Below are positions 16,163 through 22,079 of a DNA stretch of 42,710 nt, piece after piece. The stretch is from assembly GCA_001804805.1 (NCBI GenBank), contig MHBH01000045.1, positions 1-42,710 of the forward strand, written 5' to 3'. The notes under the pieces were generated by a model. The model ran no database searches. It was not told the origin of the DNA and saw only the letters and a program-made list of their open reading frames with translations. Made by a program: the position numbers and the translations under genes. How positions within the stretch are numbered: position 1 is the stretch's first letter; the number at the start of each line of letters is the position of its first letter. Source of the DNA: Lentisphaerae bacterium GWF2_49_21. GTDB lineage: Bacteria > Verrucomicrobiota > Lentisphaeria > Victivallales > GWF2-50-93.

Positions 16163-16344
16163 AATCGACAGTATATCACTGAATAACGGGGTGCAAGGCT
16201 CTTATCGCATATTTTTCCCGAATTCCTATTGCTTTTCCGGGGTATTGGTCTAATTTATGCGCCCGGTCGGGGATTTCCATAAGAATGGGAATCCGTTATA
16301 AATTAAGTAAATCGGTAAACAGAACAACAAAACAAAGAAACAAA

Positions 16345-18117
16345 ATGGCAACAGAAACAATCAACGACGTAGCAAGCTTCATCGACCTCGAAAACATGCC
16401 CGCCTCCATGGAGGAAGTGCTCAAGCAGGAAACAAAACCCAACTTTGTGGAAGGCTCCATCCTCAAGGGGCGCGTAATCGAAAAACGCGACAACGGCGTC
16501 CTCGTGGACATTCAGTACAAGTCCGAAGGATTCATATCCTCAGAGGAATTCAAGAACTGGAACGACATCAAGCCCGACGACATGATCGACGTCTTCCTCG
16601 AACAGATCGAGGACGAAAACAACATGCCCAAGCTCAGCGTCTCAAAGGCCTCCTTCCAGAAGTCCTGGGACAAGCTCTGCTCCGAATACAAGGAAGGCCA
16701 GGTAATCAAGGGCCTCATGAAGCACCGCGTCAAGGGCGGAATCATCGTCGACCTCTTCGGAATCGAGGCGTTCCTCCCCGGCTCACAGCTCGACATCGCC
16801 CCCGTCCGCAACATGGACGATTTCATAGGCAAGGAATACGACCTCAAGATACTCAAGATCAACACCGACAGGAAAAACATCGTAGTGTCCCGCAGGGAAC
16901 TTCTCGAGGCCGACCGCGCCGACAAGCGCAGCACCCTCCTCAAGGACATGGAGAAGGGACAGGTCAGGAACGGCGTCGTCAAGAACATCACCGACTTCGG
17001 TGCATTCATCGACCTCGGCGGACTCGACGGACTCCTCCACATCACCGACATGTCATGGAAGCGCATATCCCATCCTTCGGAAATGCTCGAAATCGGCCAG
17101 AGGGTCGATGCAGTCATACTCGACATCGACAACGTCAAGGAGCGCGTCTCCCTCGGGCTCAAGCAGAAGACCGAGAATCCGTGGATCAAGATCGACGAGA
17201 AATATCCCGTCGGCGCCACGATCAAGGGCCGCGTAGTCAACATCATGCCGTATGGCGCGTTCGTTGAGATAGCCGAAGGAGTCGAAGGACTCATCCACGT
17301 CTCCGAAATGTCATGGACAAAGCGCATCACCAAGGCCGGCGAAGTGCTCAGCGTCGGCGAGGAAGTTGAAGCCGTCGTACTCGACATCCAGAAGGACCAG
17401 AAGAAAATATCCCTCGGCCTCCGCCAGACCACCCAGAATCCATGGGAAGTCCTCGCCCAGAAATATCCTGCAGGAAGCAAGATAAAGGGCAAGGTCAGGA
17501 ACATGACCAGCTACGGCGCGTTCGTCGAGATCGAAAACGACATCGACGGAATGATACACGTGTCCGACATGTCATGGACAAGGAAGATCAACAACCCGAA
17601 CGAGCTTCTCAAGGTCGGACAGGAAGTCGAAGCTGTCATACTCGACATCGATCCGGCGCAGCAGAGGATTTCGCTCGGAATCAAGCAGCTTGAGAACGAT
17701 CCGTGGCTCAAGATCGACGAGCTCTACAAGATCGGCGACCTCCTCAAGGGCAAGATCACGAAGATCACCGCCTTCGGAGCGTTCATCGAGCTTTCAAACA
17801 AGATCGACGGCCTCATCCACATCTCGCAGATCAGCGACGAGCATGTAAAGCGCGTCAAGGACGTGCTTACCCTCGGCGACGAGGTTGAAGCAAGAGTCAT
17901 CAAGATCGACAGGGACGAACGCCGCATCGGCCTGAGCATCAAGGCCGCGAAGGCGAACTACTCCGAAGAGGCCCTCAAGGCCGCAGGCGAGGAAGTCGCA
18001 GCAGCCCTTGGCAATATCAAGGTCGGCGAAATGCTCGACGAAGATTCCCTCTCCGCCCTCGACGCTGTCGAAACCAGCATCAGGAAGGAAGACGCCGAAA
18101 GGGAATCAAAGAAATAG
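16345..18117 (+). CDS. rpsA: 30S ribosomal protein S1
   Basis: The 590-residue protein has six S1/OB-fold RNA-binding repeats (roughly residues 35-105, 120-195, 207-280, 294-367, 381-454 and 466-540), each ending in the typical 'R-I-S-L-G-I-K' strand, followed by an acidic, Ala-rich tail. It unwinds and delivers mRNA to the 30S subunit. Domains 3-6 are the most alike (GAFV/IEI, GLIHISxxSW), as in other S1 proteins. The start was placed at ATG 16345; upstream ATG 16285 would add a basic tail read from intergenic DNA. No Shine-Dalgarno is present before 16345, only an A-rich leader, which is usual for rpsA. Strong use of C-ending codons fits a highly expressed gene. A clear terminator follows. 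Confidence 0.96.
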   Translation: MATETINDVASFIDLENMPASMEEVLKQETKPNFVEGSILKGRVIEKRDNGVLVDIQYKSEGFISSEEFKNWNDIKPDDMIDVFLEQIEDENNMPKLSVSKASFQKSWDKLCSEYKEGQVIKGLMKHRVKGGIIVDLFGIEAFLPGSQLDIAPVRNMDDFIGKEYDLKILKINTDRKNIVVSRRELLEADRADKRSTLLKDMEKGQVRNGVVKNITDFGAFIDLGGLDGLLHITDMSWKRISHPSEMLEIGQRVDAVILDIDNVKERVSLGLKQKTENPWIKIDEKYPVGATIKGRVVNIMPYGAFVEIAEGVEGLIHVSEMSWTKRITKAGEVLSVGEEVEAVVLDIQKDQKKISLGLRQTTQNPWEVLAQKYPAGSKIKGKVRNMTSYGAFVEIENDIDGMIHVSDMSWTRKINNPNELLKVGQEVEAVILDIDPAQQRISLGIKQLENDPWLKIDELYKIGDLLKGKITKITAFGAFIELSNKIDGLIHISQISDEHVKRVKDVLTLGDEVEARVIKIDRDERRIGLSIKAAKANYSEEALKAAGEEVAAALGNIKVGEMLDEDSLSALDAVETSIRKEDAERESKK

Positions 18118-18141: not shown

Positions 18142-18178
18142 AAGAACCCCGGGAGAAACACCCGGGGTTCTTTATTTT
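18142..18178 (+). terminator. Rho-independent terminator of rpsA
   Basis: AAGAACCCCGGG (18142-18153) and CCCGGGGTTCTT (18161-18172) form a perfect 12-bp stem with a seven-base loop, followed by a T-rich stretch. Confidence 0.92.
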
Positions 18179-18277: not shown

Positions 18278-19090
18278 ATGAACAAATATATAAACCAGCT
18301 CCTCCAGATGCAGGATCTGGAAACAGCCCTCCGTGAACACAAGACCCTCAAAGGCGATACCGAAGAGGCCACCTGTGCCGAACTCAGGAAAAACATAGCA
18401 GGCCTCAAGAAGATACTGCCCCCGGAAGTAAATGTCATTTACGAGAGGATTTCGAAGAGATATCCGATCTATGTATCCCCGATGGTGAACAGCGCCTGCA
18501 CAAGCTGTTTCATGAAGATCCCTGTAGGTGTCGCAAATTCCGTACTGTCGACAAGCAATTGCATCTCATGCCCGTCATGCGGACGTTTCCTGTTCTTCGA
18601 CGAAGGCCATTTCAAGAGGCCCGGCGATGAATTCCACCAGTACAAGGGCGTGGCGAGATTCTCATCGCAGGATCTGATGATGCCCCACCTCAAGGCGAAG
18701 TCCAAGGAGGAGGTCATAGAGAAAATAGGACTCCATTGCTGCGAGACAGGCTTTGTCGAAAACCACGGAACTTTCATTAAAGGACTCCTCAAGCGCGAAG
18801 CATTGATCACGACGGCCGTCGGCTCCGGAATAGCCTTCCCGCATGCCAGGGCCATAAGGGCCTGCGGCCTTACACTCGCGGTCGGAACCGTGAAGCCCGG
18901 CATCAAGGAGAACGGCGACAACCTGTCCATATTCTTTGTTTCAGCAGTACCTACACAGACCAGTATCTTCTATATTGAACTGATCTCCAAGCTCGCTAAT
19001 TACTTCAGCAAGGCTGAAAACAGGAAGAAGATCCTCGACTGCACGAAGCCGGAGGAAATGTGGAAGATAATGGTGCAGATTGGAAAGTGA
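18278..19090 (+). CDS. Zinc-ribbon (COG1579-like) protein fused to a PTS EIIA domain
   Basis: The 270-residue protein combines two known parts. Residues 1-60 are a helical, coiled-coil-like segment, and residues 70-106 form a four-cysteine zinc ribbon (C74-x2-C77 and C98-x2-C101, with C95 nearby) ending in GRFLFF, as in the zf-RING_7/CdsZ family. Residues about 130-270 are an EIIA domain of the fructose/nitrogen type with the phospho-accepting His189 in GSGIAFPHAR. EIIA receives phosphate from HPr; without an EIIB/EIIC partner here it is more likely regulatory (PtsN-like) than a transporter part. A GAGG site precedes the ATG by 5 bases. It overlaps the next gene, a NagA-like deacetylase, so the two are translationally linked. 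The fusion is unusual. Confidence 0.85.
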   Translation: MNKYINQLLQMQDLETALREHKTLKGDTEEATCAELRKNIAGLKKILPPEVNVIYERISKRYPIYVSPMVNSACTSCFMKIPVGVANSVLSTSNCISCPSCGRFLFFDEGHFKRPGDEFHQYKGVARFSSQDLMMPHLKAKSKEEVIEKIGLHCCETGFVENHGTFIKGLLKREALITTAVGSGIAFPHARAIRACGLTLAVGTVKPGIKENGDNLSIFFVSAVPTQTSIFYIELISKLANYFSKAENRKKILDCTKPEEMWKIMVQIGK

Positions 19091-20010
19091 AGAATCCTCA
19101 CAATAGACCCAGTGGTTGGATAGATCTCCAGGTCAACGGCCTGAAAGGCATCAATTTCTCCGACACCAGCCTGACTCCTGACTCCTTTTCATCCGCCTGC
19201 AAAGACATCCTCAACGGCGGAACTGATATCTTCCTCCCTACGATGATAACCAGTCCGGTAAAAGTCTATGAACGCAACCTGGAACTGATGGTGAAATCCA
19301 TAGACGATAAAAAAGACTGGAACCGTATTCCCGGTTTCCATCTCGAAGGACCGTTCATATCCCCCGAACCAGGTTATGTAGGCGCGCACAATCCGGCTTT
19401 CACACAAAAACCGGATCCTGACCTCCTGAAGAAATTCCAGGAATGGTCCGGAGGAAAAATAAAGCTGCTGACGGTCGCCGCGGAGCTGGAAGGTTCCGAC
19501 AAGCTGGTGAAAACTGCAGTCAAACTCGGAATCACGGTCTCCATCGGCCATTCAAATTTCAATTCTGAAAACCTGAAGAGGATGGCGTCCCTCGGGGCAA
19601 AGGCGATCACCCATCTCGCCAACGGCCTTCCTCTCAATCTTGCGAAGTTCGCAAACCCGATATGGGCCGGACTCTGCGAGGAGAAGCTGATCGGGATGTT
19701 TGTCGGAGACGGACACCATATCCCCGGCAACATCCTCAAGAAGATGATTATGGCAAAAGGAATTGACAAGACCATAATAGTCAGCGACGCTTCACCTATT
19801 GCCGGATATAAACCGGGAAGATATGATCTTTTCGGAACGACTGCAGTGATAACCAAGGACGGTCGCCTCTACAATCCGGTCAAGCTGAATCTCATGGGAT
19901 CGTCATATACCATGCCGAAATGCATGGATTATCTTAAGAAATTGGATTTCCTATCCGAAAAGGAGCTATATAAGATAGGATACGAAAATCCGATAAAACT
20001 GATTTCATAA
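19060..20010 (+). CDS. Compact NagA-like amidohydrolase (N-acetylglucosamine-6-phosphate deacetylase family)
   Basis: About 310 residues, against about 380 for usual NagA. Family motifs are present: WIDLQVNGLKGINFSD, HLEGPFISPEPGYVGAHNP (metal-binding Glu), GHSN, THLANGLP, GDGHHIPG and the catalytic Asp in SDASPIAG. The N-terminal beta-sandwich half present in NagA before the barrel is missing, and the C-terminal part is short. NagA removes acetate from GlcNAc-6-phosphate. Two GTG starts are possible: 19060, with GGAGG 4 bases upstream and a 31-base overlap with the EIIA gene, or 19087, with a 4-base GTGA overlap. The overlap implies translational coupling. With the GH20 enzyme it suggests amino-sugar use, but the lost domain leaves substrate and activity open. 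Confidence 0.85.
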   Translation: MEDNGADWKVKNPHNRPSGWIDLQVNGLKGINFSDTSLTPDSFSSACKDILNGGTDIFLPTMITSPVKVYERNLELMVKSIDDKKDWNRIPGFHLEGPFISPEPGYVGAHNPAFTQKPDPDLLKKFQEWSGGKIKLLTVAAELEGSDKLVKTAVKLGITVSIGHSNFNSENLKRMASLGAKAITHLANGLPLNLAKFANPIWAGLCEEKLIGMFVGDGHHIPGNILKKMIMAKGIDKTIIVSDASPIAGYKPGRYDLFGTTAVITKDGRLYNPVKLNLMGSSYTMPKCMDYLKKLDFLSEKELYKIGYENPIKLIS

Positions 20011-20219: not shown

Positions 20220-22079
20220 ATGGATGCAACTTTTTCAATTAATCCAATATCCCTTGAGAGTATTGGAATCCCTGACTTCACCTTGGACGGGAAGATAAGG
20301 GATGTCCTTGCAAAACCTCTCCCAAGGGACTGGAAGAAGACCGGGCTCAGCAGGGAATATTATCTTGACTTCATAGAAATAATCGTGCGCAACGCCGCGG
20401 GTTGGATCGATGAGAAGGGCGCGGTGATAGATCCTTATTATAAGAAGGAATGGGCGCAGACAACTCCGAGGTTCGCCTCATCCGCATCTGTCCTGCTGTA
20501 CTTCGGAAGAATCCCGGAACTGAAGGATATTGTCCACAGGACAATGACATATTCCTGCCGTCAGCTTGCTTCCGGAAAAGGTGGAAGCCCTGATTTCTGG
20601 ATGAGGGAGCTTGTCACCGCCTATGTCTGCCTTTCAAAATCCGCCGACAAGAAACTCGTTGATGAATGGAAAAACACCCTTGCGAAAATCGCACCGGAGA
20701 AGATCAACAAGGTCGTCAGTGTCGACGGCAGCAAGCTCGGAGAACTCCACAACTGGGCGGTCTACGGCTCCGCCGGCGAATCCATGAAGGAGTCGGCAGG
20801 GATAAGATGCGAGGACAAGGATGTCCTCTGGGGGAAAAAGTTCTTCGACAAATATATTTCCCCTCAGTTCAGGCATTTCAACTCCTTCGGAATGTACAGG
20901 GATCCGAACGATCCGATCACATACGACATAACGACAAGGCTACAGCTTGCGGCCGCCCTCTGGTACGGCTATGACTGGAAACTCAAGCCCCTCATCGATG
21001 AACTCCTGCGCAGAGGAGGAATAACGACGCTGATCTTCACCTCACCTGCAGGCTTTGCCCCTTTCGGCGGCAGATCCGGACAGTTCAATTTCCAGGAGGC
21101 GATAATTGCGGCCATCTGCGAAATCGAAGCTGGAAGATACAAGCAGAACGATCCCCGGCTTGCAGGCGCATTTAAAAGGCAGGCTCACCTGTCGGCAAAA
21201 TCAGTCGAGAGATGGCTGAAGGACATGACTCCTCTCCGACATATAAAAAATGCCTTCCCGCCAGAATCTCTCCACGGCATAGACGAATATGGACAATATT
21301 CCGTCTACAGCCTCTTCAACGCTTCTGTCTTCGGTCTTGCTGCGCTTTTCGCGGATGACACGATTGAAGAAGCGGCGTGTCCGGCCGAGATCGGCGGATT
21401 TGTCCTCGAAATATCGCCGTCATTCCACAAAGTTTTCGCCACGTGCCAGAGCACGCATATAGAACTTGATACTTGCGCTGATTTACATTATGACTCAACC
21501 GGCCTTGGCCGGTTCCAGGCAAAAGGGATTCCTGCGGAACTTGGACTCAGCATGCCTTTCACATCGACACCGAAGTTCAGGCTGGATAAGAAGCTTGTTC
21601 CGGATGAAATGCTCTCCATCTGTCCGTCATGGCAGGTTTCCGGAAAATGGATTTCGTTGGCTTCCCTGTCGGAAGGATTGAAGCATTCTCTTGAAATCAT
21701 CACAGAGTCCCAGGAAAAGATTGACCTTAAAGTCAAATATGTCCATGCAGGATCGAAATCTGAAATAACTGAACAATATCAGCTCTCGCAGAACAAGTTG
21801 GTCATCAAATCAAGCGTATCTGTAAATGGTGCTGGAACTGAAAGAATCAAGTTCATGGTTCCACTGCTGGTCACTGACGGCATGAGCAAGTCGGAAATAA
21901 TCAGCGGGAAGAATTCCGTGCAGGTCAAATATCTTGGCAAGACCTATGAGATTTCCTTTGATGAAAAGGCCAAAGCTGAAATCATTGATCACGAATTCGC
22001 GAACAGGAACGGCATCTACAAGCTGCTGGCCCTGGAAACCGGTGGAAATGAAATAGAAGTCAAACTCGAATTCCAGTAA
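20220..22079 (+). CDS. Large protein of unknown function, possible toroid plus beta-sandwich glycan-active enzyme
   Basis: I cannot assign this 619-residue protein to a family with certainty. The first 390 residues are mostly helical and rich in aromatic residues, with conserved-looking segments HNWAVYGSAGESM, YRDPNDPITYDITTRLQLA and FGGRSGQFNFQEA. The last 220 residues are beta-rich (IGGFVLEISPSFHKVFATC, MVPLLVTDGMSKSEII). A helical (alpha/alpha) toroid followed by a beta-sandwich is the layout of several polysaccharide lyase and glycosidase families, including heparinase II/III-like proteins, so a cytoplasmic glycan-degrading enzyme is plausible. There is no signal peptide. The ATG at 20220 lacks a Shine-Dalgarno; a dispersed 20-bp repeat sits immediately upstream. 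Neighbouring genes are saccharolytic. Confidence 0.75.
   Translation: MDATFSINPISLESIGIPDFTLDGKIRDVLAKPLPRDWKKTGLSREYYLDFIEIIVRNAAGWIDEKGAVIDPYYKKEWAQTTPRFASSASVLLYFGRIPELKDIVHRTMTYSCRQLASGKGGSPDFWMRELVTAYVCLSKSADKKLVDEWKNTLAKIAPEKINKVVSVDGSKLGELHNWAVYGSAGESMKESAGIRCEDKDVLWGKKFFDKYISPQFRHFNSFGMYRDPNDPITYDITTRLQLAAALWYGYDWKLKPLIDELLRRGGITTLIFTSPAGFAPFGGRSGQFNFQEAIIAAICEIEAGRYKQNDPRLAGAFKRQAHLSAKSVERWLKDMTPLRHIKNAFPPESLHGIDEYGQYSVYSLFNASVFGLAALFADDTIEEAACPAEIGGFVLEISPSFHKVFATCQSTHIELDTCADLHYDSTGLGRFQAKGIPAELGLSMPFTSTPKFRLDKKLVPDEMLSICPSWQVSGKWISLASLSEGLKHSLEIITESQEKIDLKVKYVHAGSKSEITEQYQLSQNKLVIKSSVSVNGAGTERIKFMVPLLVTDGMSKSEIISGKNSVQVKYLGKTYEISFDEKAKAEIIDHEFANRNGIYKLLALETGGNEIEVKLEFQ

Follow-up and report, generated by a model that had tools for sequence, protein, structure and literature searches.

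A zinc ribbon-EIIA fusion protein that recurs across a bacterial phylum and is predicted to act as an output of a regulatory PTS

Results

Gene organization of the fusion locus

The window analyzed here, a stretch of 42,710 nucleotides of contig MHBH01000045.1 from Lentisphaerae bacterium GWF2_49_21, contains a gene whose predicted product joins a zinc ribbon to an EIIA domain, together with the neighboring genes and features listed in Table 1. The fusion gene lies downstream of rpsA, and the terminator-like hairpin between them suggests that the two genes probably belong to separate transcripts in this genome. Downstream, the gene of a NagA-like deacetylase has two possible GTG starts, at positions 19060 and 19087, which yield an overlap of 31 nt or of 4 nt (GTGA) with the fusion gene; the overlap described in the first-pass annotation therefore exists with either start. 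Genome G001 has ATGA where this genome has GTGA, and since the 4-nt overlap is kept in both, translational coupling is plausible there. The NagA-like protein covers positions 56 to 346 of the 380 positions of TIGR00221, so that 55 N-terminal and 34 C-terminal positions are absent. A further NagA relative with a longer frame is found elsewhere in the genome, at C40:136221. Farther downstream in the window, positions 20220-22079 code for a 619-aa protein that is 84% identical in G001 and gave no Pfam or NCBIfam match better than E 0.1.

Table 1. Features of the fusion locus (positions in the window)
Feature	Position	Strand	Evidence
rpsA (30S ribosomal protein S1), upstream neighbor	16285..18117	+	NCBIfam
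Terminator-like hairpin, intergenic region of rpsA and the fusion gene	18142..18172	+	12-pair stem, T run; -22.6 kcal/mol, z -3.8
Fusion gene, 270 aa + stop: short helical hairpin, C4 zinc ribbon, EIIA domain	18278..19090	+	ORF, Pfam, full-length relatives
Residues 1-62, three helices, predicted remnant of the COG1579 coiled-coil hairpin	18278..18463	+	Model, HP0958 superposition, gapped alignment against stand-alone COG1579 proteins
C4 zinc ribbon, residues 73-105, ligands C74, C77, C98, C101	18494..18592	+	PF02591; Cys invariant in 55/55
EIIA domain, residues 123-270	18644..19087	+	PF00359 at 133-265; superposition on IIA-Ntr 1a6j
Arg173 codon, predicted active-site Arg	18794..18796	+	Invariant in 55/55; aligned with RE motif of PtsN chains
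His189 codon, predicted phosphoacceptor	18842..18844	+	Invariant in 55/55; aligned with PH motif of PtsN chains
NagA-like deacetylase, without the ends of the NagA model	19087..20010	+	TIGR00221, 161.9 bits vs cut-off 225.65

The fusion joins a shortened COG1579 module to a complete EIIA domain

Pfam analyses of the window protein revealed a Zn_ribbon_9 domain (PF02591, residues 73-105, E 2.9e-7, above the curated cut-off) followed by a PTS_EIIA_2 domain (PF00359, residues 133-265, E 2.3e-25, 89.7 bits for a cut-off of 27). The latter is complete and of the fructose/mannitol/Ntr type; an EIIAGlc type was rejected for this genome, as PF00358 gave no match. His189, which the first-pass annotation had named as an intact phosphorylation site, sits in an FPHAR motif, and Arg173 lies 16 residues N-terminal of it. 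We take this motif pair to be the active site, as in EIIANtr. The protein scored below the NCBIfam cut-offs of the PtsN equivalog TIGR01419 (42.3 bits, cut-off 138.7) and of the CdsZ equivalog NF047363 (19.1 bits, cut-off 275).

A structure model based on 55 sequences (mean pLDDT 89.8, pTM 0.79) was used for superpositions, and a model based on 12 sequences (mean pLDDT 55.9) was set aside. Residues 123-270 of the predicted model superposed on IIA-Ntr 1a6j with Z 20.6 (145 residues, rmsd 2.0). The EIIA fold, the His and Arg motifs and an EIIC-less regulatory PTS are shared with PtsN/EIIANtr (1a6j, 2a0j, 3urr and 4gqx; Z 19.7-20.6), but the PtsN chains carry no zinc ribbon, and the fusion falls below the PtsN cut-off and is encoded off the rpoN contig. 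At the N-terminal end, where the model places helices at residues 3-25, 31-45 and 49-61, residues 1-109 superposed on HP0958 (Z 13.8, 109 residues, rmsd 2.4, chain span 1 to 234) and residues 1-108 on CT398 (Z 13.3, chain span 1 to 233). These superpositions cover the ends of the HP0958 and CT398 chains, which means that the stretch between the ends is skipped.

Alignment against stand-alone proteins pointed the same way. The fusions retain the N-terminal helix motif of COG1579 proteins and the ribbon, and numbering from the trimmed starts puts the first zinc cysteine of the 55 fusions at residue 69-76, versus residue 199-201 in 11 stand-alone COG1579 proteins. The helix motif and a C4 ribbon with two CXXC motifs are thus common to the fusion and to FlgZ (HP0958), CdsZ (CT398) and MSMEG_4306 of the COG1579/DUF164 family, whereas in these proteins the ribbon is preceded by a long antiparallel coiled-coil hairpin. 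On the basis of sequence and model, the zinc module is a COG1579 module of the FlgZ/CdsZ type from which about 125 residues of the coiled-coil hairpin are missing. The COG1579-like coiled coil and zinc ribbon proposed at first pass was right in part, most of the long hairpin being absent.

The fusion recurs across the phylum

Full-length fusions were found in 12 of the 60 genomes of the order, this one included; they occur in 8 of 8 genomes of its own family (f1) and in 4 of 4 of family f6 in the set. Among 387 genomes sampled from the phylum, a profile of these 12 f1/f6 proteins then recovered full-length fusions in at least 127, belonging to 39 families, counting matches that cover positions 1-15 to 268-272 of 272 among at most six candidates scored per genome, which makes this number a lower bound. 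Phylum-wide, the fusions stand at 133 places without internal stops, with two copies in six genomes. This result overturned a restriction of the fusion to its own order. The other 37 families may be Kiritimatiellia, which is a guess. A scan of named genomes with two patterns returned 11 loci, all of them in MAGs labelled Lentisphaerae, Lentisphaeria, Victivallales, Victivallis, Lentisphaera or Kiritimatiellota; since both patterns are peptides from f1/f6 proteins, the rest of the fusions are invisible to it.

Residues C74, C77, C98, C101, R173, E174, H189 and R191 are invariant in all 55 aligned fusions, which comprise the 12 from f1/f6 and 43 more found in 42 further genomes. Each of the two Pfam models also matches all 55 at E 0.001. 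Three pairwise within-genus comparisons gave dN/dS of 0.04-0.06, with dS near saturation. Recurrence across genomes and the invariant residues rule out the assembly or frame artefact that had been considered at first pass. The fusion is thus real and, as the pairing recurs across the phylum, probably a genuine regulator as yet uncharacterized.

Partial EIIA copies of the fusion type, spaced by 11.5 kb, were seen in genome G147, at L155 (G147:C1:1-20000) and elsewhere on the same 3.1-Mb contig, near both of its ends. This pattern suggests either a repeat or an effect of the assembly.

Split forms and neighboring genes

The two halves occur as adjacent same-strand genes in at least four genomes (G249, G120, G330 and G062), which were noticed through stops in the profile matches, so that others may exist. 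Each pair codes for a short zinc-ribbon protein of 104-113 aa and an EIIA protein of 152-187 aa as picked; both starts are in one reading frame in all four, with one or two stops between them. Together with the spread of the fusion through the phylum, this adjacency of the unfused halves provides good genetic evidence for a joint function. The split pairs may either predate the fusion or derive from a fused gene that was divided afterwards. In a tree of 59 rows, inferred by a quick method with SH-aLRT support only, three sets separate from one another, namely the f1 plus f6 fusions, the remaining 43 fusions and the split pairs of the four genomes; its root was set by hand on the split rows, and the tree thus has no say on whether the split or the fused form is older.

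Neighbors were tallied by crude ORF picking, especially so in G+C-rich genomes, and a first round had picked shadow genes. Among the 90 immediate neighbors of 47 other loci, EIIA genes (8) and class I/II aminotransferase genes (7) came first, and the rest occurred four times at most. The eight EIIA neighbors are the four split partners and four separate EIIA genes beside a fusion. The latter directly adjoin the fusion gene on the opposite strand, at L117, L127, L139 and L148. No conserved operon partner emerged among the neighbors of the fusion loci surveyed, which suits a general regulator and points to no target.

Phosphorelay components accompany the fusion

HPr is present in all 12 fusion genomes of the order, and PTS_EIIC was found in none of these 12, this one included, and in 2 of the 60 genomes overall. 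This genome, in which EI was searched for as well, has a ptsH-ptsI pair, a second HPr and a GAF-EI (PtsP-like), the gene of the latter lying at L051:6203-8494 (contig C40). The first-pass annotation had noted the lack of EIIC, and PTS_EIIC is absent from the whole genome; the phosphorylation-controlled regulator that it had proposed is supported, as a protein that does not belong to a sugar transporter. It had also named a genome without HPr or EI as grounds for rejection, which does not apply here, since both are present. The occurrence of EI, GAF-EI and two HPr proteins along with the absence of PTS_EIIC points to a regulatory phosphorelay with the fusion as one of its outputs. The PTS of this genome thus appears to serve regulation and resembles the incomplete PTS cascades that occur in Proteobacteria (PMC5024086, available text). 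A ptsN gene in the rpoN operon, as in PTSNtr-like systems, was not found; in this genome, rpoN is on contig C25, and the EIIA_2 domains are on contigs C20, C36, C44 and C45.

These EIIA_2 domains are four in number: besides the fusion, they belong to an HTH_17-EIIA protein, a CNNM-CBS-EIIA protein and an Na/H exchanger-Usp-EIIA protein. The three others likewise place an EIIA_2 module on a non-permease protein, but their effector domains differ from that of the fusion, with no zinc ribbon reported, and they may compete with the fusion for HPr~P. The HTH_17-EIIA gene (L053:7267-7947, C20) is located directly upstream of a gene run that, judged by eye, resembles membrane complex subunits. The EIIA domain of the Na/H exchanger (L055:1128-3665, C44) has kept its His; Thr and Leu replace the usual active-site Arg and Pro, which suggests that it may escape phosphorylation.

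A second DUF164 match was found in 10 of the 12 f1/f6 fusion genomes, G019 and G030 having one, and in 38 of the 42 other fusion genomes examined. Since a second DUF164 protein usually coexists with it, the fusion is an added paralogue.

Discussion

We propose, with a probability of roughly 0.6, that the fusion is the terminal output of an EIIC-less regulatory PTS in which the phosphorylated EIIA domain switches binding by the zinc ribbon, the likeliest partners being the transcription apparatus or RNA. EI (PtsI or GAF-EI) would take phosphate from PEP, and HPr would hand it on to His189. A minimal COG1579 module, made up of the zinc ribbon and the shortened helical hairpin that carries it, would be the effector, and phosphorylation of the EIIA domain would switch the ribbon's binding to a sigma factor, RNA polymerase or RNA; which partner is bound, and in which direction the switch works, is speculative. 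According to the available text of PMC5947703, the COG1579 proteins HP0958 and CT398 bind RpoN, an activity assigned in CT398 to the coiled coil alone, and HP0958 binds flaA mRNA through its zinc ribbon. The Waddlia homologue is described as associated with DNA, and RpoD as its partner, still unconfirmed, in a pull-down (PMC6426960). Because the ribbon is retained in the fusion and the coiled coil is mostly gone, RNA or a general partner in transcription seems to us more likely than RpoN. A bolder version is put forward tentatively, in which a sugar-independent PTS physically switches sigma-factor, RNA-polymerase or mRNA binding via a minimal zinc-ribbon adaptor. We found no description of such an output class. 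The EIIA half could also be the effector instead of the ribbon, by analogy with the published outputs of EIIANtr, which consist of phosphorylation-dependent binding by the EIIA domain itself (PMC5024086, same portion).

In one alternative, the ribbon would bind mRNA or the translation apparatus under the control of EIIA phosphorylation, which would agree with the flaA mRNA binding of HP0958, with the presence of rpsA directly upstream of the fusion in 6 of the 12 f1/f6 loci, and with the ChIP targets of the Waddlia homologue of CT398, mainly translation and ribosome genes in the accessible part of PMC6426960. However, the rpsA neighbor cluster is confined to family f1 loci, the terminator-like hairpin separates the two genes in this genome, and residues 1-112 are not consistently positively charged (net charge between -3 and +4 across the 8 fusions examined out of 55), which leaves this reading doubtful. 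In another alternative, the zinc module would protect or recruit RpoN as FlgZ and CdsZ do, His189 coupling this sigma54 chaperone to the PEP or carbon/nitrogen state. FlgZ requires its ribbon cysteines for normal RpoN levels, contrary to the split of functions between coiled coil and ribbon (PMC3372290, in the portion available), which favors this possibility. Sigma54 is encoded in all 60 genomes, with or without the fusion, and its presence therefore cannot discriminate. The coiled coil by which CT398 binds RpoN is mostly absent from the fusion, the second DUF164 protein is usually still there and could do that job, and rpoN lies on a different contig in this genome; we consider an RpoN chaperone unlikely.

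Two further readings concern the EIIA half and the downstream gene. The EIIA domain might be a scaffold that is no longer a phosphoacceptor, leaving a protein that is a zinc-dependent adaptor only. In favor of this, all 55 fusions have Tyr at position 232, where His is the commonest residue in the other EIIAs examined (18 of 33), and F231 occurs in none of these 33. Tyr232 might alter phosphotransfer; as a mark peculiar to fusions it was rejected, since 11 of the 33 share the Tyr. On the other hand, H189 and R173 are invariant, HPr accompanies the fusion in every fusion genome of the order, and the EIIA part has undergone few nonsynonymous changes (dN 0.07-0.12 versus dS of about 1.6 or more in the within-genus comparisons), so that a loss of phosphoacceptor function seems very unlikely. 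The first-pass annotation had connected the fusion to amino-sugar metabolism, and the fusion would then control or sense the translationally coupled NagA-like enzyme. Consistent with this are the 4-nt stop/start overlap in two genomes, the published finding that EIIANtr of Salmonella inhibits GlmS in a phosphorylation-dependent manner (PMC5024086, as far as its available text goes) and a gene located about 4 kb downstream of the fusion in G006, which belongs to the Glucosamine_iso family, a family that includes 6-phosphogluconolactonases. Yet the NagA-like gene lies 3' of the fusion at only 2 of the 12 f1/f6 loci, those of this genome and G001; it was not seen at the other ten, one of which, in G007, breaks off 61 bases downstream and so allows no judgement. 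The NagA-like gene of the window also belongs to no neighbor cluster common to at least four of the 59 loci, and close relatives (E 1e-70 or better) occur in 33 of 58 other genomes, most of them without the fusion. The relative in G002 (55% identity) is on a contig other than that of the G002 fusion. The amino-sugar link is thus not supported, the NagA-like gene looks like a local neighbor only, and we regard an amino-sugar regulator as very improbable.

In its bolder version, the proposal would directly link a PEP-driven phosphorelay to the transcription apparatus or RNA across many families of the phylum. The fusion joins two families whose cellular roles are unsettled, the regulatory PTS outputs and the COG1579 zinc-ribbon proteins, in a genome whose PTS lacks PTS_EIIC and has its EIIA domains on four different kinds of partner domain. 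No description of a zinc ribbon-EIIA fusion was found among the titles and abstract openings listed for searches of the open-licence literature, and the main text of a 2026 PTSNtr review, in the part available, makes no mention of zinc, fused or fusion (PMC13104625). In the fusion, DUF164 is in the middle of the protein, whereas it is near the C-terminus in the 349 Pfam proteins of a 2011 survey (PMC3372290, available portion). The same portion reports another DUF164 fusion, WS2117 of Wolinella succinogenes, but its partner is NIF3 and not a PTS domain.
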